From: Chloroflexota bacterium
GTDB taxonomy: Bacteria; Chloroflexota; Anaerolineae; Anaerolineales; Villigracilaceae
Reading direction: 5' to 3'
Assembly (NCBI GenBank): GCA_016235445.1
Contig: JACRLB010000002.1
Location: 62,001 to 126,000, forward strand
DNA: 64,000 bases
The notes under the pieces were generated by a model that worked only from the letters and a program-made list of their open reading frames with translations, ran no database searches and was not told the DNA's origin. The position numbers and the translations under genes are program-made. Below, piece by piece: positions 1 to 63,503 of the stretch (positions are counted from its first letter, which is position 1; every line of letters starts with the position of its first letter).

Positions 1-945
1 AACATCTTCAAAACCGTAGTTCAGTTATTGAAAGAAACCTATGGCTATACTTATGTCAGCATCTACCTGCTGGAAGATTCAACCCTGAGGCTTGGCGCCC
101 AGGCAGGATACCCGCAAGAACTCATCATCCATGAAATCCCCGTCAACATGGGAATTGCAGGGAAAACCGTCCGCACCAAACAGGGACAGTTCATCCAAAA
201 CGTTCGCGCCGACCCAACCTTTTTGGTTGCCTCCTACGAAGTGCAAAGTGAAATCTGCGTGCCATTACTAAAAAATGACAGTATTTTGGGCGTGCTCAAC
301 ATCGAATCAGATTCCAACCGCCCGCTCACCGAAAAGGACATGCATCTGCTGACCTCCTTCGCCAGCCCCGTAGCCATGGCAATTGACAACGCCCGCCTGC
401 ACGCCAGGGTCACCTCGCTGGTGCTCAAAGACGGCATGACCGGCCTCTTCAACCGCCGCGCCTTCGATCAATTCCTCGAAACCGAGGTCAACCGCGCAGA
501 ACGCTACGGCCACTTGCTTTCGCTCATCATCCTCGATATGGACTCCTTCAAAGAATACAACGACACCTACGGCCACCCCGCCGGGGATGAACGCCTGAAA
601 GCCATCGCCATAATCCTGAATGATAACGTGCGCGACCCAGACGTCGCCGCCCGCTATGGAGGCGAAGAATTCGCCATCATCCTGCCGCACACCACCAAAG
701 AAGGCGCCACCATCCTGGCAGAAAGACTGCGGGAAACCGCCGAAGAACAGGCGCCCGGCGAACCCGGCGACCGCGCATATATCCCCGGATACACCATCAG
801 CCTGGGAGTGGCAACCTTCCCCTACGATGGCGACACAACCGCCGCCCTCCTGCGCGCGGCAGACAATGCCGAGTTGAACGCCAAACGCCTCGGGAAAAAC
901 CGCGTCTGCATTGCTGAAACATCGGAGAACCTCCCCAGTGAATAG
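1..945 (+). CDS. GAF-GGDEF diguanylate cyclase, 5' end outside window
   Basis: Predicted diguanylate cyclase that makes c-di-GMP from two GTP. The frame is open from base 1, so the true start lies upstream of the window. What is visible is most of a GAF sensor domain (to about base 410) followed by a complete GGDEF domain. The active loop reads RYGGEEFAIILP. An RxxD product-inhibition site (RDPD) sits five residues before GGEEF, so both catalysis and feedback look intact. No membrane segment is visible in the part present. The stop overlaps the GTG start of lysA by 8 bases, which suggests co-transcription. The family call is firm; the GAF ligand is unknown. Confidence 0.93.
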   Translation, partial: NIFKTVVQLLKETYGYTYVSIYLLEDSTLRLGAQAGYPQELIIHEIPVNMGIAGKTVRTKQGQFIQNVRADPTFLVASYEVQSEICVPLLKNDSILGVLNIESDSNRPLTEKDMHLLTSFASPVAMAIDNARLHARVTSLVLKDGMTGLFNRRAFDQFLETEVNRAERYGHLLSLIILDMDSFKEYNDTYGHPAGDERLKAIAIILNDNVRDPDVAARYGGEEFAIILPHTTKEGATILAERLRETAEEQAPGEPGDRAYIPGYTISLGVATFPYDGDTTAALLRAADNAELNAKRLGKNRVCIAETSENLPSE

Positions 946-2257
946 ACTTGACCTCTTCCCAGATACAACCAAAATAAACAACGATTCCCTGACAATCGCC
1001 GGGCATTCCCTCGCCGCCCTCGCCGACACATACGGGACTCCATTCTATTTATACGACCGCGCCACCCTGGATAATTCAACAGCAGGATATAAAACCGCAC
1101 TCGCTTCGCACTACCCCGGGCCTGCTTCTGTTACCTATGCAGGGAAGGCATTCCTCTGCATTGCCATCGCGCAATGGACTCAGCCTCACGCCTTGTACGT
1201 GGATTGCACAGGCGAAGGCGAGATCGCCATTGCAATGGCAGGCGGAGCGCCGCGTGAGCATATCCTCGCGCATGGCGTCAACAAATCCATCGCCGATCTA
1301 AACTCCGCAATTCAACATGCCGGCACAATCGTTGTGGACAATATCTTTGAACTCAATCGGGTCAAGGAGTTAATCCCAAATCCCCAATCTCCAATCTCCA
1401 TTCCTCAACCCCCAATCCCCAACCTCTGGTTGCGCCTCCTCCCAGGTGTGACGGTAGCCACCCACCACACCCACACCCAGACCGGACAGCACGAAAGCAA
1501 GTTCGGCATGACCCGCGAAGAGATTCTCGAAGCCGCGCAATTTTGCAAAGATCACAATTTACCTTTGAACGGAATCCACTTTCATCAAGGTTCAAATTTC
1601 CGCGATGCAAGCCCGCTGAAATCGGCAATTGAATTGGGGCTTGACCTCGCCAAAGAAATTGGCTTTGAGCAAGATTGGCATTTCAGCCCCGGCGGCGGAT
1701 GGGGCGTGGCCTATCACGAGGATGAACTTCCACAGCCTGATGTAAATGAGTACGTGCGCGTGATCGCAGAGAATGTGATCGCGGGCTGTCAGGCTCACGG
1801 ACTCCCTCTCCCCCATTTGCATTTGGAGCCTGGGCGCAGTTTGGCGGCGCGGGCGGGCGTGGCGGTTTACAGGGTGGGCGCAGTCAAAAGACGCGGCGAC
1901 AAAGTTTGGATATTAACCGACGGCGGCATGACAGATAATCCGCGACATGCAATGTATGGGGCGAGATACTCTTGTTTGCCGGTATCAGGCCCGGGCGGGG
2001 AGAGAAGCGAGGTGGTTTCCATCGCGGGGCCGTATTGCGAGTCGGGGGATGTGGTCATCGAAGATTTGCCCATGCCAAAAATCCTGGCTGGCGATTTGAT
2101 CGCGATTCCAGTTTCGGGGGCGTATCAGTTGAGCATGGCGTCCAATTACAATGGGGCGAGGAAACCAGCGGTGTTGTGGCTGGAAGATGGCGCAGTCAAG
2201 TTAATTCAAAGGCGGGAGACAGTGGATGACCTTTTGCGGCGCGACGAAGGTCTGTAG
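938..2257 (+). CDS. lysA: Diaminopimelate decarboxylase
   Basis: PLP-dependent decarboxylase of the alanine-racemase fold; the last step of lysine synthesis (meso-diaminopimelate to lysine) is the likely role. Lys70 in VTYAGKAF is the expected PLP lysine. The HxHQGS stretch, the GGGWG phosphate loop, EPGRSL and the CESGD motif near the C-terminus are all present. I chose GTG at 938, after a GGAG about 10 bases upstream and overlapping the previous stop, rather than the TTG at 911. Residues about 146-163 are an odd Pro/Ile/Gln-rich run encoded by a low-complexity CCAATCTCC-type repeat (1374-1427), in frame and apparently tolerated. Another meso- or D-amino-acid decarboxylase of the same fold cannot be fully excluded. 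Confidence 0.88.
   Translation: MNRLDLFPDTTKINNDSLTIAGHSLAALADTYGTPFYLYDRATLDNSTAGYKTALASHYPGPASVTYAGKAFLCIAIAQWTQPHALYVDCTGEGEIAIAMAGGAPREHILAHGVNKSIADLNSAIQHAGTIVVDNIFELNRVKELIPNPQSPISIPQPPIPNLWLRLLPGVTVATHHTHTQTGQHESKFGMTREEILEAAQFCKDHNLPLNGIHFHQGSNFRDASPLKSAIELGLDLAKEIGFEQDWHFSPGGGWGVAYHEDELPQPDVNEYVRVIAENVIAGCQAHGLPLPHLHLEPGRSLAARAGVAVYRVGAVKRRGDKVWILTDGGMTDNPRHAMYGARYSCLPVSGPGGERSEVVSIAGPYCESGDVVIEDLPMPKILAGDLIAIPVSGAYQLSMASNYNGARKPAVLWLEDGAVKLIQRRETVDDLLRRDEGL
1374..1427. repeat. CCAATCTCC-type low-complexity repeat inside lysA
   Basis: An imperfect iteration of CCAATCTCC/CCAATCCCC lies in frame within lysA. Similar strings occur between genes at 42515-42552 and, on the other strand, at 51665-51705. 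It adds about 18 residues to LysA in a region that is normally short. Confidence 0.7.
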
Positions 2258-12285: not shown

Positions 12286-12295
12286 CCCGAGTAGT

Positions 12296-12485
12296 TTGAC
12301 AATGTCACATTTCAAAACCTTTACCACAAAGTCCACAAAGGGGCACAACACTTGCGCCGCACTGCGTTTGTTGCAGTGCAGGTGAGGAGAGCAAAAGCCT
12401 AAATAAAAACGAAGGTTTCCTTCGTGTTACTTCGTGCCCTTTGTGGTTTTGTACTTTGGTTTCAGTCTTAATATGACATTGTCAA
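12296..12485. repeat. Inverted-repeat element family I, copy 1 (190 bp)
   Basis: The ends read TTGACAATGTCA and TGACATTGTCAA. A 6-bp direct repeat, AGTAGT, flanks it (12290-12295 and 12486-12491). The interior carries CCACAAAGTCCACAAAGG and GAAGGTTTCCTTC motifs. Other copies are at 61819-62069 and, truncated, at 63307-63435. Confidence 0.8.
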
Positions 12486-12510
12486 AGTAGTTCCGATAGT
12501 TTTCCATTAA

Positions 12511-25791: not shown

Positions 25792-25814
25792 AGAAGTGGG
25801 GGCTACCCACTTCT
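25792..25814 (-). promoter_or_regulatory. Leader hairpin upstream of nusA
   Basis: Perfect 9-bp stem AGAAGTGGG / CCCACTTCT with a five-base loop; the minus strand continues CTTTGTTTG. It lies about 35 bases before the nusA start and could be an attenuator on which NusA acts on its own operon. That role is inference. Confidence 0.55.
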
Positions 25815-25881
25815 CGGTGTCTTCTTTATTGGGTTGTCCTTACCGCCAAAATTTTAGCATAGAGACTGTGAAGGCGCAAGG

Positions 25882-25887
25882 TATAAT
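25882..25887 (+). promoter_or_regulatory. -10 TATAAT, leaderless-type start
   Basis: Exact TATAAT ends 7 bases before the methyltransferase ATG. Transcription would begin at about the start codon, and no SD site is present. Confidence 0.6.
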
Positions 25888-25894
25888 CTCGGCC

Positions 25895-26689
25895 ATGAAT
25901 GAAAGAGACATGCAAAAAGCCGCACTGCGCGGTGAACCTTCCTATGTATGGCGCGACGGACAGCAACGCCGCCTTGAGATGATTATAAAATTTGCCGGGG
26001 AACGCATTCACAGACGAGTCCTTGAAAATGGCTGCGGGGTGGGAATGTATGTGGAAAAAATCTCCGCCCTCCCGAAAGAGCATCGGGACGATGTGAGCGG
26101 AGTTCCGAGCGATCTTCGAGGAACGCAGTCGAAGGGCTATGTGATCGGATTGGAATATGATTTTGAGCGCGCCCGCGATGCCAAAGTCAACTCGACGAAG
26201 ATCATCAATGCCGCAGGCGAATCCCTCCCGCTTCCTTCTTCGACCTTTGACCTGATCCTCAGCCACGAAGTGATCGAACACGTACAGAGTGACCGCTCCG
26301 CGATTGCCGAGATGGTGCGCGTGTTGCGGGTGGGTGGGCGCGCAGTGATCTTTTGCCCGAACCGCGGCTACCCCTTTGAAACGCACGGAATTTTTTGGAA
26401 GGGGAAATATTATTTTGGCAACAAGTTGTTCGTGAATTATCTGCCGCGCACCCTGCGCGATAAACTTGCTCCGCACGTGCGCGTGTATTCACGACGCGAC
26501 ATGCAAAAATTATTTGACGGCCTGCCCGTGAAATTCATCGAACGCACGATCATCTTCGGCGCGTACGATAATATCATTGCACGTTTTGGAGCATTCGGAA
26601 AATTCCTGCGTGCGGTCCTGCAATTTCTTGAAGCCACGCCGTTGAAAGTATTTGGCCTGTCTCATTTTTGGGTGGTGGAGAAGGTATAA
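25895..26689 (+). CDS. SAM-dependent class I methyltransferase
   Basis: 264 residues from the ATG at 25895. Motif I is ENGCGVGMYVEKIS and the family motif DLILSHEVIEHV is clear, followed by LRVGGRAVIFCPNRG. Substrate unknown; UbiE/COQ5-like small-molecule or lipid methylation is possible. An odd stretch (about residues 64-82, RDDVSGVPSDLRGTQSKG) between the first strands is encoded by an interspersed repeat (26084-26139) inserted in frame. Transcribed divergently from nusA. Confidence 0.85.
   Translation: MNERDMQKAALRGEPSYVWRDGQQRRLEMIIKFAGERIHRRVLENGCGVGMYVEKISALPKEHRDDVSGVPSDLRGTQSKGYVIGLEYDFERARDAKVNSTKIINAAGESLPLPSSTFDLILSHEVIEHVQSDRSAIAEMVRVLRVGGRAVIFCPNRGYPFETHGIFWKGKYYFGNKLFVNYLPRTLRDKLAPHVRVYSRRDMQKLFDGLPVKFIERTIIFGAYDNIIARFGAFGKFLRAVLQFLEATPLKVFGLSHFWVVEKV
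26084..26139. repeat. In-frame interspersed repeat in the methyltransferase gene
   Basis: The GAGCGGAGTTCCGAGCGATC and AACGCAGTCGAAGGGC segments resemble the CTTCGAC...CGCTCAG repeats at 36030-36065 and 43441-43470. It adds about 19 residues without breaking the frame. Confidence 0.6.
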
Positions 26690-35249: not shown

Positions 35250-36083
35250 TCACGGAATGAGAGTCTGCGTTGGCAGAATGTAATCCACGCTTTGGATGGT
35301 GAGGTCGGAGAAGGAGACGACGGCGGGGGTTTCTCCCACAGAGCGGACAAAGACGCCGATGGAACCGCTGGGGAAGCTGGGGTCGGTGATGCTGAATTGA
35401 AAACGTCCGTTCAAGAAGAGGCGCATTTCCCTGCCCACTGCCCACACCCCAATGCGGACTTGGCCCGGTGCGCCCGGGGGCACGTCTCCGCTGGGGAGGG
35501 GTTGCTGCAAAACCAGCCGCGTCCCGCCGCTGACTCGTTCGGCGCGGACAACGCCATTGCAGGCTAAAACAAAACGATAATAGCTGGATGCGCTGGCGCG
35601 GATGAGGAGGCCGTAGCTGTCTTCGTTGCGGCAGAGGCTGGGGCGGGCGGTGATCTCGGCGTAGTAGTCGTTGAGCACGAGGTCATTCCTGAGGCTGAGC
35701 ATGTAGACCTGGCTTTGCACCGAGAGAATGAGATGGTTATTTTTTATATCTGCGCTGGCCTGGTTGGAGGCGGCGATGTTCCACAGAGATGGGTCGGAGA
35801 AATCGTCGGTGACGATTTGGCTGCCGAGGCCGGGGCGCATTTCGGGGGTGGGGGCTTTGGTGGATAAAGCTATCAGCGTGGGGGTTGCCGAGGGTGGGAA
35901 CCAGTTTATGGTCGCGGTGGGAAGCGGGGTTTCCGTCGCAGTGAGGGGAACGGGCGTGGCGAGGATCACATCCAGTTGGGAGCAGGATGTGATGAGCATC
36001 GTCATTGCGAATAATATCCATGTGAGGCGCTTCGACTTTGCTTGCGCTCCGCTCAGCGCGAAGGGTGAAAAAATCATATTCAT
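35250..36083 (-). CDS. Lipoprotein with LamG/concanavalin-like domain
   Basis: 277 residues. Signal and lipobox FAMTMLITSC; Pro/Thr-rich spacer (about 45-85); then a beta-sandwich domain (about 88-265) with VTDDFSDPSLWNI at its start and VRIGVWAVGREMRLFLNGR, the DUF1080/LamG-like pattern of surface carbohydrate or ligand binders. The first 18 residues are encoded by an interspersed repeat (36030-36065), so the real start may have been replaced by insertion. Confidence 0.8.
   Translation of the reverse strand: MNMIFSPFALSGAQAKSKRLTWILFAMTMLITSCSQLDVILATPVPLTATETPLPTATINWFPPSATPTLIALSTKAPTPEMRPGLGSQIVTDDFSDPSLWNIAASNQASADIKNNHLILSVQSQVYMLSLRNDLVLNDYYAEITARPSLCRNEDSYGLLIRASASSYYRFVLACNGVVRAERVSGGTRLVLQQPLPSGDVPPGAPGQVRIGVWAVGREMRLFLNGRFQFSITDPSFPSGSIGVFVRSVGETPAVVSFSDLTIQSVDYILPTQTLIP
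36030..36065. repeat. CTTCGAC...CGCTCAG repeat at the 5' end of a lipoprotein gene
   Basis: GCGCTTCGACTTTGCTTGCG and CTCCGCTCAGCGCGAAGGG form an imperfect palindrome of the same class as 43441-43470. In frame with the signal peptide. Confidence 0.65.
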
Positions 36084-43052: not shown

Positions 43053-46000
43053 CTAAAGTTTCGCAAACCGACTCACCACCTTCGCCGCCGTAGCGGGACG
43101 ATCCATCAGTTCACCCTGAGCCTGTCGAAGGGCCGCTCCTTGGTGAATCAAAATCGGCGTGCCTTCCTTTGCATACTCAAAATTCAAATACGCCTGACCT
43201 GTGATGAAGCGCTGTCCATCAATGGCGCAGGATGTGACGAAGCCAATGCGTTCGCCGTTGGCGTTTACCACGGGGTCGCCGTTGTGCGCCATGCGCACGC
43301 GCTGTTCGTCGAAGGTGAAGCGGATGACAACACCTTTGCGTTCTTTCTCGCGCGCCACATAAGCATCCCGACCGATGAACCACGGCTTGTACGGTTTTAC
43401 GTACGAACCGAATCCACCTTCCGCAACGCCAAGGTCGCGTCCTTCGACTGCGCTATCGCTCCGCTCAGGACGAGAGCCTTTACCCATTTCGTGCCCGTAC
43501 AACGGCAAGCCCGCTTCCGTCCTCAACGAATCTCTCGCGCCCAAACCAATTGGCTTGACTCCAAACGCCTCGCCCGCTTTCATCACCGCGTTCCAAAAAT
43601 CAACAGCGCGCTCAGGGTGGACGAATAATTCAAACGCCATCTTCTCGCCTGTATAGCCCGTGCGTGAGACGATCAGGTCAAAATTACCAATTACTGCATC
43701 ACATAACTCCGTCCTTTTCAACCCAATTACTTTTCTTCGCGTTTCATCGTCCACACCCATCGCGAGCAAGATGTCACGACTTTTCGGACCCTGTAATGCA
43801 ATGTCAACACGCATATCCTTCCCCGCTTTCGGGTCGCGCAAGTTGCGGATGTCCGCTTCATAGCCGTACGTCCGCGCCCATGGTCGGCCATTGTCAATTT
43901 TCACTTTGCCATCGCGCACACTTTCGAGCCATGTGCGATCCTTGTCATCGTTGGAAGCATTTACGACAACAAGATAATTATCCCAGCCGCGGCGATAGAC
44001 GAGCGTGTCGTCTATCACGTCCGCATCGGGCGTGAGAAAATGCGAATACAAAGACTCGCCCGGCAGAAGCCCGCCGCAGTCATTGCCGCAGACCGTATCG
44101 AGGAACGAAGCCGCATCCGCGCCGCGCACATCGTACACGCCCATGTGCGAAACATCGAACAAGCCCGCCGCATTGCGCGTGGCAAGATGCTCCTCGAAAA
44201 TTCCCGTGTACTGCACAGGCATTTCCCAACCAGCGAATGGGACCATTCTGCCGCCGCTCGATTTATGGACATCATACAACGCCGTGCGCTTTAGTGGACT
44301 CTCAGACTCATTCCACTCAAAAGGCGGCAGCGCCTCACCCTTTAACTGTGGGTTGACTCCAACAAACCAGGGCTTGACTCCACCCTGAAGCGGGGGAACC
44401 GTAGCCGAGAGTTTGGTTTTCACTTCATTCACCACAAAAGCGCCTGGCATTCGCTTCGCGCTGAAATCCTTTGTCCCATCCACATTGAAGGATGTGTATC
44501 CATCCGAAAGATCCCTCAGCCATGTCGCCACTGCCGAAGCGTTTTTCACAGGCACTTGCAATTGATAGGTGTTGTTATCCACGTTCTTCAACAAACCCTT
44601 CACAGTGCCCTTTGGTGTGGCAATGGATGTAACTTGAGTCTTACCCTTCTTCAATGCCGAGAGATCAGAAGACACCGCGAAATCCAACACCTGACGAATG
44701 CGCTGTCCGCTTAATTCGTACACTCCGTAGGACAATTTGCCAAATTGTCCTACATCATCAATGTAATAGAAATGAGGATAGCCATTCTTCGTCGGCTTGA
44801 AGTCAATGCCTGCGGAAGTTGCCAGCTTGCGGATCTTCAACTTGGCTTCGTTCAACACGTTGAAATCCAACTTGGCTCTGCGCTGTTTGCCTTTTTTGAC
44901 CGTGTCCACAGAATGCGGCGCGCAAGCGATGAGCACATCCGCCATGATATTTGCCAACTCGCGAGTCTTCTTCTCGTCAAATCCGCGCTGGGTGATCCAC
45001 GGCGTGCCGAGACGAATACCGCTCGGATCCATCGAGTTCTTGTCACCTGGAATGGTGTTGCGGTTGACCACCACGCCGACGATGTCCAAAATGCGTGAGG
45101 CCTGGTCGCCGCTTAGTTTGGTTCCATCTTCGCCAACGATACTGGTGCAATCGACATTGACGAGATGTGTGTCTGTGCCGCCGAACGGGACGCGCAGTCC
45201 ACGCTTGGTAAATTGGTCAGCCATGGCTTTTGCATTTTTAAGAGTCTGTGCCTGGAGTTGTTTAAACTGTCTGGTCTGAGTCAACTTGAAGGTTAAAGAA
45301 AGAGCCGCGAACACGTTCACATGCGGGCCGCCCTGTTCGCCAGGGAAGACGGCTTTGTCAATCTTCTTCGCAATCGCCGCATCCGTTGTCATCAACACCG
45401 CGCCGCGCGGACCGTCAATCGATTTATGCGTCGTAGACATGACCACGTGAGCGTATCCGATGGGGGAAGGCACAACGCCCGCCGCCACCAGCCCGCCGAT
45501 GTGCGAAATGTCCGCGAGGAAATACGCGCCCACTTCGTCCGCGATCTCGCGGAACTTCTTCCAATCAGGAACCCATGAATAGGATGAATAGCCGGCGATC
45601 ATCAACCTGGGTTTGTTATCCAATGCCAATGCGCGGATCGCGTCATAGTCAAGTTTCTCGTTCTGGTTAATCGTGTAATGCACGGCCTTGAACCACTTGC
45701 CCGAGCGGTTGACCGATGAGCCGTGAGAGAGATGTCCGCCGTGCAGGAGGTTGAGTCCCATCACGGTATCGCCGAGATTCAATAAAGCCTGATAGACCGC
45801 ATTGTTGGCGGGGCCGCCAGACAACCCTTGCACATTTACATAAATTTGGTCGGCTGAGAATCCGTTGGCGGCGAAGGTTTGCGCGGCGCGGCGGCGCGCG
45901 AGGGCTTCAACTGCGTCTGCATATTCGACGCCCTTGTAATAGCGCGGGTCACTGTTGCGGCGGTAATTGCCGAGGCGGGCAGGGTAATCGAGAATGTCCT

Positions 46001-46214
46001 CATCATCCATCCAGCGCGTATCTTCATCGGGATAGCCTTCCGCATAGATATTCTGGAATGCGGAAGACAACGCCTCGCGCACCGCCATCGGAGCGGTTGA
46101 TTCAGACGCGATCAGAATCAACTTGCGATACTGGCGCTCCGCTTCGAGCTGGGTTAATTCATAAACATCGGGGTCGAGTTTTTCAAGCGAACCACGGAAC
46201 AAATAATCGGGCAT
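43053..46214 (-). CDS. glyA-gcvT: Serine hydroxymethyltransferase - aminomethyltransferase fusion
   Basis: 1053 residues joining two folate enzymes of glycine metabolism. Residues about 1-490 are SHMT (PLP lysine 264 in STTHKSIDGPRG; GYPDEDTRW near the N-terminus). About 490-640 is a linker with no clear domain. About 650-1053 is the T-protein of glycine cleavage (FDVSHMGVYDVRG, IALQGPKSRDIL, GLGARDSLRTEAGLPLYGHE). Both make or use methylene-tetrahydrofolate, so the fusion could channel it. Three short repeats lie in frame (44727-44753, 43441-43470, 43114-43132). GcvP and GcvH are not in the window. Both halves look functional. Confidence 0.95.
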   Translation of the reverse strand: MPDYLFRGSLEKLDPDVYELTQLEAERQYRKLILIASESTAPMAVREALSSAFQNIYAEGYPDEDTRWMDDEDILDYPARLGNYRRNSDPRYYKGVEYADAVEALARRRAAQTFAANGFSADQIYVNVQGLSGGPANNAVYQALLNLGDTVMGLNLLHGGHLSHGSSVNRSGKWFKAVHYTINQNEKLDYDAIRALALDNKPRLMIAGYSSYSWVPDWKKFREIADEVGAYFLADISHIGGLVAAGVVPSPIGYAHVVMSTTHKSIDGPRGAVLMTTDAAIAKKIDKAVFPGEQGGPHVNVFAALSLTFKLTQTRQFKQLQAQTLKNAKAMADQFTKRGLRVPFGGTDTHLVNVDCTSIVGEDGTKLSGDQASRILDIVGVVVNRNTIPGDKNSMDPSGIRLGTPWITQRGFDEKKTRELANIMADVLIACAPHSVDTVKKGKQRRAKLDFNVLNEAKLKIRKLATSAGIDFKPTKNGYPHFYYIDDVGQFGKLSYGVYELSGQRIRQVLDFAVSSDLSALKKGKTQVTSIATPKGTVKGLLKNVDNNTYQLQVPVKNASAVATWLRDLSDGYTSFNVDGTKDFSAKRMPGAFVVNEVKTKLSATVPPLQGGVKPWFVGVNPQLKGEALPPFEWNESESPLKRTALYDVHKSSGGRMVPFAGWEMPVQYTGIFEEHLATRNAAGLFDVSHMGVYDVRGADAASFLDTVCGNDCGGLLPGESLYSHFLTPDADVIDDTLVYRRGWDNYLVVVNASNDDKDRTWLESVRDGKVKIDNGRPWARTYGYEADIRNLRDPKAGKDMRVDIALQGPKSRDILLAMGVDDETRRKVIGLKRTELCDAVIGNFDLIVSRTGYTGEKMAFELFVHPERAVDFWNAVMKAGEAFGVKPIGLGARDSLRTEAGLPLYGHEMGKGSRPERSDSAVEGRDLGVAEGGFGSYVKPYKPWFIGRDAYVAREKERKGVVIRFTFDEQRVRMAHNGDPVVNANGERIGFVTSCAIDGQRFITGQAYLNFEYAKEGTPILIHQGAALRQAQGELMDRPATAAKVVSRFAKL
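43114..43132. repeat. CCCTTCGACAGGCTCAGGG repeat in gcvT
   Basis: 19 bp, an exact reverse complement of 50272-50290 inside leuS. It encodes RQAQGE-type residues near the GcvT C-terminus, outside the conserved core. Confidence 0.85.
43441..43470. repeat. CCTTCGAC...CGCTCAGGA repeat in gcvT
   Basis: Imperfect palindrome in frame; it encodes RPERSDSAVEGRD between the conserved GHEMGKG and the glycine-rich GFGSY segment. Confidence 0.7.
44727..44753. repeat. Palindromic repeat in the fusion linker
   Basis: 27-bp palindrome GTAGGACAATTT-GGC-AAATTGTCCTAC (given for the minus strand). It adds VGQFGKLSY to the region between the SHMT and GcvT parts. Confidence 0.8.
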
Positions 46215-47741: not shown

Positions 47742-47814
47742 GGGCCTGTAGCGCAGTTGGGAGCGCGCCTCAATCGCACTGAGGAGGCCAGGGGTTCGAA
47801 TCCCCTCAGGTCCA
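47742..47814 (+). tRNA. tRNA-Ala(CGC)
   Basis: 73 nt with a full cloverleaf. Anticodon loop ATCGCAC gives CGC. The acceptor stem GGGCCTG / CAGGTCC has the G3-U70 pair that defines alanine tRNAs. T-arm GGGGTTCGAATCCCC. The 3' CCA is not encoded. Confidence 0.95.
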
Positions 47815-47900
47815 CTAGGCAGTGAACAGTCATCAGTAATCAGCCTGAACCACTGTCGAAAACTGATCACTGGTCACTCTTAAAAACTGATTACTGAAAC

Positions 47901-47973
47901 GGGCCCATAGCGCAGTTGGGAGCGCGTCTCAATGGCATTGAGAAGGTCGAGGGTTCGAATCCCTCTGGGTCCA
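47901..47973 (+). tRNA. tRNA-Ala(GGC)
   Basis: 73 nt. Anticodon loop ATGGCAT gives GGC; acceptor GGGCCCA / TGGGTCC again has G3-U70. CCA not encoded. A CAGTxATCAG repeat fills the 86 bases between the two tRNAs, which otherwise share the upstream promoter. Confidence 0.95.
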
Positions 47974-47981
47974 CAAACAAA

Positions 47982-48604: not shown

Positions 48605-48763
48605 GGCTTTACCGTTTTTAACGGGACAACTATTGCCAACTAAAAAATCTGCCGCGAATTTCGCTAATTCACGCTAATTTTCAAACCAATTTGCGAAAAT
48701 TCGCGTAATTCGCGGCAAAAGGTTTGTTGTTTGAAATTCAATCCCGCCAGAAACGGGAGAGCC
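48605..48763. mobile_element. MITE family F, copy 1 (159 bp)
   Basis: Ends GGCTTTACCGTTTTTAACGG and the mirror of GGCTCTCCCGTTTCTGGCGG. An exact 8-bp direct repeat, GTAAACAT, flanks it (48597-48604 and 48764-48771). It sits 37 bases before the leuS ATG, inside the T-box-controlled leader. A second copy is at 53043-53202. Confidence 0.9.
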
Positions 48764-48799
48764 GTAAACATAAATTCATCTTGTAACAATGAGGCAAGA

Positions 48800-51664
48800 A
48801 TGGCAACTATAAAAAAGAAAAGTGACACAAAGAAAATAGCTTCTAAGAAGAAAGCCGTGGTTAAAAAAGTTGTTGCTAAAAAAGTGAAAACTGTAAAGGT
48901 AAAGCCTGCGGTGAAGAAAACTGCGGCGAAAGCAACCGTAAAGAAATCCGCTCCGAAGCCTGCCCAAAAGAAAAAAACCACGATGGCGATTGAGCCAGTG
49001 AAGAAAATGGCTGTGGTTGTTAAAGAAGAAAAGCCGAAGGCAATCGTGCCTGTCAAGGCAGAGAAAAAGACTGAGTCTACACCTGCCCGTCACGATCAAT
49101 CCTTTCAGCCGCAGGCAATGGAGAAGAAGTGGCAGGAAAAATGGGACGCGGACAAGTTATATCGCTCGGTGATCGATGAGAGCAGGCCCAAGCATTACGC
49201 CTTGACCATGCTCCCCTACCCCAGCGGCGACCTGCACATCGGTCACTGGTATGCGATGACCCCGTCTGATGCGCGCGCGCGATACATGCGTATGAAAGGC
49301 TACAACGTACTGTTCCCGATGGGCTTCGATGCGTTCGGTCTGCCTGCGGAGAATGCGGCCATCAAGGACGGTGTGCATCCCATGAAGCGTACCTTCCAAA
49401 ATATCGAGCGGATGCGTACGCAGATGCGTTCGATGGGAGCGATGTTCGATTGGGAACGTGAGATGATCTCTGCCGCGCCCGAATACTACAAGTGGACGGA
49501 ATGGTTTTTCATCCAGTTGTACAAGGCTGGCCTGGCCTACCGCAAAATGTCTGCGGTGGACTGGTGCCCGAACTGCAATACCACGCTGGCGCGCGAACAG
49601 GTCTGGGGCGATGACCGTCATTGTGAACGCTGTGGCACGCCTGTCATCAAAAAGAATTTGGATCAGTGGTTCTTCAAGGCCACGAAGTACGCGGATGAAT
49701 TACTGCGCTTCGATGGCATTGACTGGCCGCAGACAGTGAAGACCTTGCAGACGAATTGGATTGATCGGAGTGAAGGGGCGGAGGTGCAGTTTCAGATTGC
49801 GAGTGAGAAGGAATTAGGAAATCAGGAATTAGGAATGAGGAATGAGGATTCTATAATTCCTAATTCGCAATCCCTAATTACTGTTTTCACCACCCGTCCG
49901 GACACGTTATGGGGCGCGACGTTTATGGTCTTCTCGCCTGAACATCCGTTGGTGGATGTGATCACTACGGAAGAAAATAAAGCTGCTGTCAACGAATACA
50001 AAGCGCAAGCCGCACGCCAAACGGAAATTCAACGCGGCGCAGTGGATAAGGAAAAGACGGGCGTGTTCACAGGCGCGTATGCCATCAACCCCGTCAATCA
50101 GGCGCGTATTCCAATTTGGATCGCGGATTATGTGATGATGTCTTACGGCACGGGCGCGATCATGGCTGTGCCCGCGCATGACGAACGCGATTTTGCATTT
50201 GCCAAAAAGTATGAACTGCCGATAGTTTTTGTGATCCAGCCTGAGGTTAAGGATGAAGCGGATAAAGATGACCCTTCGACAGGCTCAGGGCAAGCGAATG
50301 CCGCTTACACGGGATCAGGCATAATGGTCAACTCAAATCAGTTCAACGGGACGAAGGTCAACACAGAAAAAGGAAGAAAGAATCCTGGGATTGCGAAGGT
50401 GTTGGATTGGATTACGGAGCAGGGTATCGGCAAAGAGTCGGTCAACTATCGTTATCGCGATTGGTTGATCTCGCGCCAGCGTTATTGGGGCGCGCCGATT
50501 CCGATGGTGCATTGCGATGTGCATGGCTGGAACCCTGTGCCCGACGATCAATTGCCCGTGCTGTTGCCCGAAGATGTGGAATGGAAGCCGACGGGTGAGT
50601 CACCGTTGAAATTGCATCCGACCTGGAAGCATACGACTTGTCCTGTTTGCGGCGAGGCGGCGATTCGTGAAACCGATACGATGGATACCTTCATGTGTTC
50701 GTCGTGGTATCACTTGCGTTATTTGTCGCCGAAGTATGATAAGGGCCCGTTCGATGAAGCCGAGTACAACTATTGGATGCCTGTGGATACGTACACGGGC
50801 GGCATCGAACACGCCACCATGCATTTGCTCTACACGCGTTTCTTCCATAAGGCCTTGCGCGATATCGGTATTGTCGAAGGCCACGAGCCGATGATGCAAT
50901 TGCGCAATCAAGGCATGGTGTTGGGTGAAGACGGCGACAAGATGTCGAAGAGCAAGGGCAATGTGATTGCGCCCGATGTGCTGGTGAATAAATACGGCGC
51001 GGATACGGTGCGCGCCTACATCATGTTCTTCGCGCGTTGGGAGATGGGCGCGCCGTGGGACTCGCAGGGCATCGAAGGAGCCGCGCGTTGGGTGCGCCGC
51101 GTGTGGACTCTGTTTACGGACCCTTCGACGACCAAGCAGGACGCGTCCGACTCCCCCGAAACTGCCACTGAAGAAACCAAAAAGAATCTACGCCGACGGG
51201 TTCACCAGACCCTGCGCAAAGTGACGCGTGACTTCGAGAGTTTTGAATTCAACACCATCGTGTCATCCTTGATGGAGTTGATGAATGAAATGTACAAGGC
51301 GCGTGAAGCAGGCGCGGCTGGTAGTGACGTGTGGAAGGAAGCGCAGGAAATCTATTTGAAGATGATGGCTCCCGTCACTCCGCACATCGCCGAAGAATTG
51401 TGGGCACAGTTGGGCAAGCCGTACTCCATCCACACACAAGCCTGGCCCACCGTGGACGAAGCCGCTACGAAGGAAGACTCCATCGAGATTCCCGTGCAGA
51501 TCAACGGCAAGGTGCGGGACGTGGTCATCGTCCCGGCCGATGCGAGCGAAGATCAAATCCGCGCCGCGGCGTTGGCATCTGAAACTGTCCAGAAGTATTT
51601 GGAGGGCAGGGAGCCAAAGAAGGTGATCGTGGCAAAGGGACGGTTGGTGAGTGTGGTGGTGTAG
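48800..51664 (+). CDS. leuS: Leucyl-tRNA synthetase with Lys/Ala-rich N-terminal extension
   Basis: 954 residues from ATG 48800 (GAGG upstream). The conserved enzyme starts near residue 97 (SFQPQAMEKKWQEKWD), with PYPSGDLHIGHW (HIGH) and GDKMSKSKGN (KMSKS), and the CP1 editing domain between them (TTRPDTLWGATF). The first about 95 residues are a Lys/Ala/Val-rich, histone-H1-like tail (KKKAVVKKVVAKK, KPAVKKTAAKATVKKSAPKP), probably an added nucleic-acid-binding arm. Two repeats lie in frame: about residues 336-360 (49806-49880) and about 491-497 (50272-50290). Regulated by the T-box. Confidence 0.96.
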   Translation: MATIKKKSDTKKIASKKKAVVKKVVAKKVKTVKVKPAVKKTAAKATVKKSAPKPAQKKKTTMAIEPVKKMAVVVKEEKPKAIVPVKAEKKTESTPARHDQSFQPQAMEKKWQEKWDADKLYRSVIDESRPKHYALTMLPYPSGDLHIGHWYAMTPSDARARYMRMKGYNVLFPMGFDAFGLPAENAAIKDGVHPMKRTFQNIERMRTQMRSMGAMFDWEREMISAAPEYYKWTEWFFIQLYKAGLAYRKMSAVDWCPNCNTTLAREQVWGDDRHCERCGTPVIKKNLDQWFFKATKYADELLRFDGIDWPQTVKTLQTNWIDRSEGAEVQFQIASEKELGNQELGMRNEDSIIPNSQSLITVFTTRPDTLWGATFMVFSPEHPLVDVITTEENKAAVNEYKAQAARQTEIQRGAVDKEKTGVFTGAYAINPVNQARIPIWIADYVMMSYGTGAIMAVPAHDERDFAFAKKYELPIVFVIQPEVKDEADKDDPSTGSGQANAAYTGSGIMVNSNQFNGTKVNTEKGRKNPGIAKVLDWITEQGIGKESVNYRYRDWLISRQRYWGAPIPMVHCDVHGWNPVPDDQLPVLLPEDVEWKPTGESPLKLHPTWKHTTCPVCGEAAIRETDTMDTFMCSSWYHLRYLSPKYDKGPFDEAEYNYWMPVDTYTGGIEHATMHLLYTRFFHKALRDIGIVEGHEPMMQLRNQGMVLGEDGDKMSKSKGNVIAPDVLVNKYGADTVRAYIMFFARWEMGAPWDSQGIEGAARWVRRVWTLFTDPSTTKQDASDSPETATEETKKNLRRRVHQTLRKVTRDFESFEFNTIVSSLMELMNEMYKAREAGAAGSDVWKEAQEIYLKMMAPVTPHIAEELWAQLGKPYSIHTQAWPTVDEAATKEDSIEIPVQINGKVRDVVIVPADASEDQIRAAALASETVQKYLEGREPKKVIVAKGRLVSVVV
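49806..49880. repeat. GGAATTAGGAAT-type repeat inside leuS
   Basis: GGAATTAGGAAATCAGGAAT and, inverted, ATTCCTAATTCGCAATCCC. It adds KELGNQELGMRNEDSIIPNS between two conserved parts of the enzyme without breaking the frame. Confidence 0.8.
50272..50290. repeat. CCCTTCGACAGGCTCAGGG repeat inside leuS
   Basis: Exact reverse complement of 43114-43132 in gcvT. It encodes DPSTGSGQ in the editing domain region, just before the conserved YTGSG segment. Confidence 0.85.
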
Positions 51665-52959: not shown

Positions 52960-53264
52960 AGGGCTTATGCAAAACCCCAAGAATTGCCGCCAATTTACCC
53001 TACGGGCACGATGTCGCGAATTCGCACGAATTATCAAAAAAAGGCTCTCCCGTTTCTGGCGGGATTGAATTTCAAACAACAAACCTTTTGCCGCGAATTA
53101 CGCGAATTTTCGCAAATTGGTTTGAAAATTAGCGTGAATTAGCGAAATTCGCGGCAGATTTTTTTAGTTGGTGATAGTTTTCCCGTTAAAAACTGTAGAG
53201 CCAAAAAAAATTAGCGGGAATTCGTAGCAATTCGCGGCTAAAGATTTTAAACTGCGTAAGTCCT
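52960..53264. repeat. Inverted-repeat element family E, copy 2, split by a MITE
   Basis: Ends AGGGCTTATGCA and ACTGCGTAAGTCCT as in 32250-32383. The middle is interrupted by the family F element (53043-53202). With that removed the remainder is about 145 bp. It fills most of the space between 52932 and 53365; no gene is seen there. Confidence 0.8.
53043..53202. mobile_element. MITE family F, copy 2 (160 bp), nested
   Basis: Ends GGCTCTCCCGTTTCTGGCGG and the mirror of GGCTCTACAGTTTTTAACGG. It is the same element as 48605-48763 in reverse orientation, and is flanked by runs of seven to eight A on both sides, consistent with an 8-bp target duplication. Inserted into a family E element. Confidence 0.85.
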
Positions 53265-54604: not shown

Positions 54605-54724
54605 ATTTAATGCATTAACCACGGAAGGTAAAGAGTTCACACATCGTCCCGATGTTCTTTCGGGAGAGATTTTTAAAAGTTTTTCTCGGCGCTCTTATTA
54701 CCCTGTGGGCTGTGGCAAAAGCTT

Positions 54725-61780: not shown

Positions 61781-61811
61781 AACAGGCCGCGCTTTCGCGC
61801 GGCCTGCTTGT
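61781..61811 (+). terminator. Terminator of the 693-residue gene
   Basis: CAGGCCGCGC-TTTC-GCGCGGCCTG then CTTGTT, 5 bases past the stop. Strong stem, short U-run. Confidence 0.8.
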
Positions 61812-61818
61812 TACTAAT

Positions 61819-62069
61819 TTGACAATGTCACATTAATACTGAAACCAAAGTACAAAACCACAAAGGCACGACACTTGCGTCGTGCGGCTTAAGCCGTACC
61901 AGTGCAGGTGAGTGTCACAAAGGAAACCTTCGTTTTTAGCCTTTTGCTCTCCTCACCTGCACTGCAACACACCTGCCCTGGCGGGCGGTGCCAGGGAACG
62001 CAGTGCGGCGCAAGTGTTGTGCCCCTTTGTGGACTTTGTGGTAAAGGTTTTGAAATGTGACATTGTCAA
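61819..62069. repeat. Inverted-repeat element family I, copy 2 (251 bp)
   Basis: TTGACAATGTCACA and TGTGACATTGTCAA ends with a 6-bp direct repeat, ACTAAT, on both sides (61813-61818 and 62070-62075). It is inverted relative to copies 1 and 3. The longer interior includes a CCCTGGCGGGCGGTGCCAGGG palindromic arm pair. Confidence 0.85.
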
Positions 62070-62099
62070 ACTAATTGGGAATCAAGATGGGGAAAGGAA

Positions 62100-63236: not shown

Positions 63237-63306
63237 AAATTCATTATACTACACCCTCTGAATTTACAGTTCCCCCAACCCGCCCCTTCACCTACCAATT
63301 ACTACT

Positions 63307-63435
63307 TTGACAATGTCACATTTCAAAACCTTTTACCACAAAGTCCACAAAGGGTCACAACACTTGCGCCGCACTGCGTTCCCTGGCACCGCCCGCCAGG
63401 GCAGGTGTGTTGCAGTGCAGGTGAGGAGAGCAAAA
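63307..63435. repeat. Inverted-repeat element family I, copy 3 (truncated)
   Basis: The left end TTGACAATGTCACATTTC is preserved, after ACTACT; the right end is missing. It continues into CCAATCCTCC low-complexity sequence up to the sigma factor gene. Opposite orientation to the copy at 61819-62069. Confidence 0.75.
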
Positions 63436-63503
63436 TGCTAAAACCCATCCCCAATCCTCCAATCCTCCCACAACCTGCAACTTCCCCCCACCGACTCCTG
63501 TAT

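Follow-up and report, generated by a model that had tools for sequence, protein, structure and literature searches.

How do short dispersed repeats come to lie, in frame, inside conserved enzymes? The question is raised by a window of 64,000 nt, the whole stretch of DNA that was analysed (G000:C4:62001-126000), in a genome of 4.13 Mb on 55 contigs with 98.28% completeness. The initial annotation had read eight short segments of this window as dispersed repeats translated within proteins and had likened them to Rickettsia palindromic elements. The genes and repeats concerned are the following:

911-2257, plus strand: lysA ORF (diaminopimelate decarboxylase), Pfam Orn_Arg_deC_N; start probably at 938 according to the gene caller
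1372-1427, plus strand: AATCYCC heptamer array, in frame as IPNPQSPISIPQPPIPN; from TRF (period 7 at 1372-1422) and the alignment
25796-26689, plus strand: methyltransferase ORF, Pfam Methyltransf_11
26072-26139, plus strand: composite repeat, a CATCGGGACGATGTG element and a GAGCGGAG..CGCAGTCGAAGG element, net 20 inserted residues
35250-36083, minus strand: lipoprotein ORF (LITSC, lipobox recognised by eye), no Pfam match, true start uncertain
36030-36065, minus strand: TTCGAC..GCTCAG-type element located at the lipoprotein N-terminus or immediately before it
43053-46214, minus strand: GlyA-GcvT fusion ORF of 1053 aa, Pfam SHMT and GCV_T, with full-length fusion matches
43114-43132, minus strand: CCCTTCGACAGGCTCAGGG 19-mer, in frame (ALRQAQGE), adding about 8 residues net close to the C-terminus of GcvT
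43441-43470, minus strand: TTCGAC..GCTCAG element (RPERSDSAVEG), in a GcvT loop with other inserts in relatives
44727-44753, minus strand: 27-bp GTAG..CTAC palindrome (VGQFGKLSY), between the SHMT and GCV_T domains
48731-51664, plus strand: leuS ORF, identified by Pfam, with 1h3n as homologue
49806-49880, plus strand: AGGAATT heptamer array with flank, in frame, LeuS loop 1, editing domain, residues 359-384 (TRF 49809-49848)
50272-50290, plus strand: CCCTTCGACAGGCTCAGGG 19-mer, in frame (DPSTGSGQ), LeuS loop 2, residues 514-520

All eight segments were found, and the ORF is kept open in each. The segments in the window measure 19, 27, 30, 36, 54, 56 and 75 bp. We consider it likely that they represent in-frame insertions of several unrelated families of short dispersed repeats, of which selection retains the frame-keeping, stop-free copies in permissive loops.

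Orthologues were searched in 61 genomes including the source genome, and the best 30 loci per search were aligned. The named relatives derived from the LeuS search are mostly Anaerolineales and other Chloroflexota MAGs; the closest one in that search was Hainich-H51-bin274 with 90% identity in the best segment. In LysA, the repeat sequence at 1374-1427 is missing in all 29 other aligned rows. The loop with the AATCYCC array is 7 residues longer than in many relatives and clearly shorter in 27 of the 29 rows, with other long sequences in G005 and G001; it is made of AATCTCC units in the window genome and of ATTACCA units in G016. The methyltransferase insert of 20 residues lies at about 26072-26131, slightly to the left of the range first given (26084-26139), and is missing in 24 of 24 orthologues; a second copy of the repeat at 26069-26095 is found at 54640-54666. 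In GlyA-GcvT, the 19-mer is missing in the 26 rows that reach the site (three of 29 rows end short) and the repeat at 43441-43470 in all 27 covering rows, several of which hold other inserts in this loop. The 27-bp palindrome is missing in 29 of 29 rows, and its region is net 5 residues longer than in most relatives; G033 and G034 hold another palindrome there, and G034 carries the 19-mer at a further site of the fusion protein. Both LeuS inserts, placed within the editing domain by Pfam, are likewise missing in 29 of 29 aligned rows; at the position of the array (49806-49880), G031, G036 and G016 have other period-7 inserts.

The claim that LysA, the methyltransferase, GlyA-GcvT and LeuS contain in-frame repeats therefore stands: repeat-free homologues exist for the enzyme inserts, and the repeats are missing at these positions in the aligned relatives, with the exception of one LeuS locus, L163, discussed below. 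A check of five loci in the relatives for in-frame stops revealed none within the aligned gene in four of them; in the fifth, lysA of G036, a stop was present at the extreme N-terminal end, away from the repeat. The inserts of LeuS, LysA and TrpC have no counterpart in the solved homologues aligned with them, and the same is true of the TTCGAC insert of MutS; the PDB alignments listed for GlyA-GcvT cover the SHMT part only. No distant orthologue with the same segments appeared among the solved-homologue alignments listed. An origin of the inserts as ancestral protein sequence is rejected on their absence in the aligned relatives and solved homologues.

The lipoprotein was a different case. Its element at 36030-36065 is a true repeat, common to one relative (L261) and substituted by a different repeat in some others. 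A translation as the lipoprotein N-terminus, as first proposed, is doubtful because the gene caller places the gene start downstream of the repeat, at 35999. The lipoproteins of L262, L265, L266, L268 and L275 have SLRG- or RRSN-like peptides upstream of the lipobox; that of L262 is presumably derived from a ATTGCGAGG-type repeat.

The abundance of the repeats was assessed in a sample of 864 kb, consisting of the window plus 40 further stretches of its genome, each 20 kb long (20.9% of the genome, five contiguous blocks), in which a simple hexamer model predicted 709 genes. Three classes of repeats were distinguished: period-7 tandem arrays, TTCGAC..GCTCAG repeats and 27-bp GTAG..CTAC palindromes. 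TRF (score of at least 40) detected 220 tandem arrays, of which 121 had a period of 7 or its multiples up to 42; ten order-2 shuffled samples, the chance control, contained 10-25 arrays each, with 0-5 of such periods. The commonest units among the 121 arrays were AATTACC (26), AATGCAG (12), AATCTCC (7) and AAAGAAG (7). Under a strict definition, with at least 50% identity kept at a shift of 7, 114 arrays were retained; the seven dropped ones had 14- or 21-bp periods, some of them being 7-residue protein repeats. At least 80% of their length lies in predicted genes for 41 of the strict arrays, which occur in 31 of the 709 genes, and the other 73 lie outside. The TTCGAC..GCTCAG family has 31 loci, 21 of them in genes; 32 starts were counted compared with 0-4 in the ten shuffles. 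Two copies of the 19-mer CCCTTCGACAGGCTCAGGG are present in the window against 0.03 expected (at most three mismatches), and 14 genome-wide, with no match for the reversed control. The leuS and gcvT copies lie in opposite orientation, as had been noted. A table of all 12-mers with at least five copies contained too much noise at 12-13 bp to enter the statistics.

The ATTACCA unit is bound to the lineage. Three units with at most one mismatch were present in 10 of 301 Chloroflexota genomes, eight of them in the source family, with 74 matches in the source genome, 124 in G113 and none in four of the seven genomes of the same genus that were searched. The presence of several unrelated families rules out a single family resembling the Rickettsia palindromic elements.

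If short repeats insert into genes and intergenic DNA alike, purifying selection would remove the copies that shift the frame, bring in a stop or strike the protein core. The survivors, be they heptamer tandem arrays, TTCGAC..GCTCAG elements or GTAG..CTAC and CTCTCCC palindromes, would contribute a few residues to permissive loops, either as additions or as replacements. The copies were classified by a window-based coding score on either side of each element. Among the 34 strict heptamer arrays between coding flanks, 24 are in frame, seven change the frame and three contain a stop; the remaining 80 of the 114, including 16 in predicted genes, lack a coding signal on both sides. The ten exceptions touch gene ends or fall between neighbouring genes. 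At five such junctions, nine neighbour proteins were scanned with Pfam, and the four full pairs proved to be separate proteins, the partners matching different Pfam families or each being a full copy of its own. Of the TTCGAC loci (n = 31), 15 are in frame and one contains a stop at the end of a gene; the other 15 do not lie between coding flanks. Two of 14 GTAG or CTAC hairpins and four of 95 other hairpins were in frame, the remaining 12 and 91 not lying between coding flanks; six of seven CTCTCCC hairpins also lacked such flanks, and the seventh changes the frame 18 bp before a gene end.

The density of heptamer arrays in genes is 0.10 of the intergenic density, and that of TTCGAC elements 0.39 when counted by gene overlap; the latter value supersedes one of 0.20, obtained with elements without coding flanks counted as intergenic. 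In-gene heptamer copies are rare in comparison to intergenic ones, and where a coding signal is present on either side they keep the frame, apart from the exceptions at gene ends and junctions. In 36 of the 41 in-gene cases, the strict array lies more than 30 bp inside the gene. Of these 36 internal arrays, 30 have a unit consensus free of stops on the coding strand and six one with a stop, compared with an expectation of 54.8% stop-free from the 73 intergenic arrays at random orientation (binomial p = 0.0003). All period-7n arrays before the strict filter yielded similar values (33 of 40 versus 41 of 75, p = 0.0002; density 0.11).

Since 7 is not a multiple of 3, an array of at least three units gives the same 7-residue cycle in all three frames. 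A heptamer array would accordingly be open or closed as a whole on a given strand, and a change of 21 bp would keep the frame. The seven-codon reading in every frame is a matter of arithmetic and not a measurement; it fits the outcome of the stop test. This suggests why coding DNA tolerates period 7. As a tentative extension, the heptamers of this Anaerolineales lineage might be regarded as frame-neutral loop makers that enter permissive enzyme loops and change in 7-residue steps, a genus-wide natural insertion scan in which unrelated repeats resample each loop.

Genes in which heptamer arrays were also detected include those for TrpC, MutS, argininosuccinate lyase, a Mur ligase-like protein, a P-type ATPase and a molybdopterin oxidoreductase. 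The TrpC insert is located directly before the conserved LLRKDF motif, and its arrays differ in length among the window genome, G016 and G002. In G012 (L301), a second site of TrpC holds an insert made of a CTCTCCC palindrome, TPTPLPMGEGQGVR. In MutS, the TTCGAC insert is shared or resembled in two congener rows, L314 and L327. A separate loop of this mismatch repair protein at residues 389-409 or thereabouts (L313-L331) reaches a period-7 score of at least 0.5 in 14 of 19 congener rows, with CAGTNAT-type units where sequence was shown; in two rows it is longer by 7 residues. Among 11 order-level rows, period 7 was seen in one, the outgroup L338, with a score of 0.61. An AAAGAGG-like array seen by eye in the MutS of G018 (L328) was discarded at a period-7 score of only 0.36. 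The array at residues 127-137 of ArgH was discounted as proof of insertion, as it brings no length change relative to the solved homologue; the MutS heptamer loop adds no length either, so that replacement or chance is possible at these two places.

Loops of this kind could also grow in place, by local slippage on chance near-duplications in low-complexity sequence and without any movement of repeats. Length differences of 7 or 14 residues were found in several orthologue sets, namely in LysA, in MutS (L330 and L331 versus L313 and L317) and in TrpC (L285 versus L286 and L303), and a polymerase-slippage origin of the 7-nt length has been proposed, according to the accessible text of that report (PMC4679880). 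Slippage in place does not account for identical units at many loci, such as the 26 AATTACC and 12 AATGCAG arrays mentioned above, nor for the TTCGAC and GTAG inserts, which are not tandem. The units in one loop vary among species, and the differences in MutS L316 and L318 are not multiples of 7, as is also the case in LeuS. Local slippage is therefore rather unlikely as the main explanation.

The loops of LeuS were compared across 80 named loci. Loop 1 holds a CAGTTAT-type array in the nearest relative (L155) and several others, a GGTCAAC array in L170 with a peptide identical to that of G016, and a CTCTCCC palindrome in L162. Loop 2 holds a near-copy of the 19-mer in L163 and a perfect hairpin with a 14-bp stem in L170. 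Palindromes occupy it elsewhere, GTAG-type ones in L169 and L187 and a CTCTCCC one in L180 and L183. L173 contains GTAGGGCAGGATAGTATCTTGCCTTAC, which by eye closely resembles the palindrome that adjoins the Y1 transposase gene of L023; the L173 loop is shorter than usual, which indicates that the palindrome replaces the loop. Among 25 LeuS inserts of at least 6 residues, three had a period-7 score of at least 0.6 and five a hairpin of at least 8 pairs, values reached by fractions of 0.001 and 0.005, respectively, of random pieces of the same length. On a quick tree of 81 rows, calculated with the insert columns excluded and with loop state defined by length alone, the long state of loop 1 is found in 21 of 80 rows and takes at least 14 long/short changes; that of loop 2 is found in 9 of 81 rows and takes at least eight. 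A repeat class could be assigned by eye to 13 of the 21 long loop-1 rows.

The occupation of the same loops by different repeats across species is the strongest point of the analysis and goes beyond the initial annotation. It is the pattern that follows if only copies in permissive loops survive. The tree also bears on gene exchange, by which a few ancestral inserts would have spread by recombination and been lost elsewhere, so that parallel insertion would be overcounted. Both window LeuS inserts are common to one of the 80 loci, L163, which is not a neighbour of the window LeuS on the tree and thus fits exchange or loss as well as insertion; one palindrome type of loop 2 occurs in L170, L171 and L199, which also stand apart. 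Yet the identity between L163 and the window LeuS around the inserts is no higher than in the rest of the gene, and unrelated repeats within one loop cannot stem from one insert. We regard exchange as an unlikely source of the overall pattern.

An AlphaFold2 model of the window LeuS, the one protein modelled, was calculated from a 52-sequence alignment and had a mean pLDDT of 75.4. Values below 50 were confined in the insert regions to residues 360-379, between the strands 346-356 and 382-387, and 508-520, between the strands 502-504 and 530-532. Both inserts thus fall into low-confidence loops of this model, in agreement with disordered or unmodelled loops; low pLDDT is also expected from missing homologues and does not by itself establish surface exposure. 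The LeuS N-terminus (window 48731-49096) forms a Lys/Ala-rich extension of about 120 residues with a pLDDT of about 30. In L181 (JAKOVF010000277.1), about 50 extra residues including ILFFDEAE are present in frame in LeuS loop 2; the segment reads like a fragment of an AAA+ ATPase.

Insertion followed by selection for frame draws on the observed identity of the repeats, their absence in relatives, their frame, the avoidance of stops, the loop position in one LeuS model and the repeated occupancy of loops. The elements would have moved between loci, and the inserts are presumably translated and close to neutral. A retention for function, for instance in tuning enzyme activity or mRNA structure, could be suspected from the MutS loop with period 7 in 14 of 19 congener rows. 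Its form is variable, though; the inserts of different species have unrelated sequences, many relatives lack inserts altogether, and the density of copies is lower within genes, which makes a functional role highly improbable. An assembly artefact of metagenome bins has even less to recommend it: most of the named genomes are MAGs and repeats commonly cause misassembly, but the inserts are in frame and flanked by intact conserved sequence, and inserts of the same kind occupy the same site of TrpC, MutS and LeuS in other genomes. We judge this explanation extremely unlikely.

How the elements might have moved is hinted at for one class. The 864 kb contain 11 GTAG..CTAC hairpins, of which eight are 27-28 bp long and three lie in genes, and the 27-bp palindrome GTAGGACAATTTGCCAAATTGTCCTAC at 44727-44753 has just three other loci in the genome within three mismatches. 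The GTAG tag by itself is not significant and was discounted as evidence because other tetramer tags give 3 to 24 hairpins in the same scan. Six Y1_Tnp matches were found in the genome. A Y1 transposase, a 224-residue ORF at L023, sits between the GTAG palindromes GTAGCGCAAATTGTCAATTTGCGCTAC and GTAGGGCAAGATAACATCTTGCCCTAC, and the match at L019 has GTAG-tagged hairpins on one side; at the remaining four matches neither flanking nor one-sided GTAG hairpins were found. The palindromes may thus be moved by a Y1/RAYT transposase, and the context of L023 and L019 lends weak support to RAYT-type mobilisation of the palindromes alone. No mobiliser was found for the TTCGAC elements or the heptamers. 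At window positions 12286-12491, 61811-62079 and 63299-63443, repeats of roughly 150-200 bp look MITE-like by eye, with TTTGACAATGTCACATT close to their ends.

Known heptamer repeats include the STRR sequences of cyanobacteria. The small dispersed repeats of Nostoc, reportedly described by Elhai in 2008, are said to be about 20-30 nt long, and the present repeats resemble them in size and dispersal. In the parts of the reports available, TAACTGA heptamers of Beggiatoaceae and cyanobacteria are stop-free in the reverse reading, LSVISYQ, and their insertion into coding sequence was concluded to succeed mainly at the protein periphery (PMC4679880), while GGGAATC-type heptamers of Xanthomonas and Nostoc are biased to non-coding regions (PMC4692102). 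As far as these accounts go, the present arrays agree with them in being period-7 arrays of many copies that are mostly intergenic (73 of 114 strict ones), in having the related units TCAGTTA and GGGGATT and, as with TAACTGA, in being stop-free on one strand with the translation LSVISYQ. Unlike the reported heptamers, whose coding copies are described there as few or at protein ends, most in-gene arrays of the present sample (36 of 41) are more than 30 bp away from either gene end.

REPs of the GTAG and CGTC types, with RAYT transposases, have been reported from within the genes of several species, among them repair genes and tRNA-related ones; the accessible sections suggest that insertions in linkers or loops are possibly neutral and place different REPs at about the same recB site in two Xanthomonas species (PMC3733652). 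The latter case, as presented there, is a precedent for the shared sites seen here. The GTAG palindromes resemble these REPs, to the extent they are described, as short intragenic palindromes with a GTAG tag and a Y1 transposase nearby, and differ in being few and symmetric 27-mers, with heptamer arrays supplying most of the in-gene copies counted. Rickettsia palindromic elements, as summarised in part in a secondary source, are 105-146 bp long, lie in frame within conserved proteins and are thought to be tolerated (Ogata 2000, via PMC2229807). The present repeats are similarly dispersed and in frame inside conserved genes, here with orthologues that lack them. In contrast to the 105-146-bp palindromes of that account, they are about 19-75 bp long, belong to several unrelated families and are mostly tandem heptamers.

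What had been proposed, the survival in proteins of repeats that keep the frame, is borne out by repeat-free orthologues, solved homologues, the in-frame counts and the low-confidence positions of the LeuS loops. The comparison with Rickettsia palindromic elements holds only as an analogy: the system may be said to work like these elements without being one of them. In-gene REPs and heptamer repeats are already known separately, and the lineage shares parts of all the systems compared. A literature search covering few subscription journals returned no report of in-frame repeats in Chloroflexota proteins, of frequent interior heptamer arrays in conserved enzymes or of unrelated repeats at the same loops over many species. 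An uncultured Chloroflexota lineage far from Rickettsia thus has repeats that would feed core enzymes, with the same loops comparable over dozens of species. The ways in which short repeats turn into protein, and the choice of loops in LeuS, MutS or TrpC that accept foreign sequence, become open to testing.

Further repeats were observed around leuS. An inverted repeat of 122 nt with 100% complementarity flanks the leuS region (window 48642-48763 and 53043-53164). Two genes for tRNA-Ala, with the anticodons cgc and ggc, lie at window 47742-47974; they are 82% identical and 85 bp apart, with a period-24 repeat at 47851-47896 between them.
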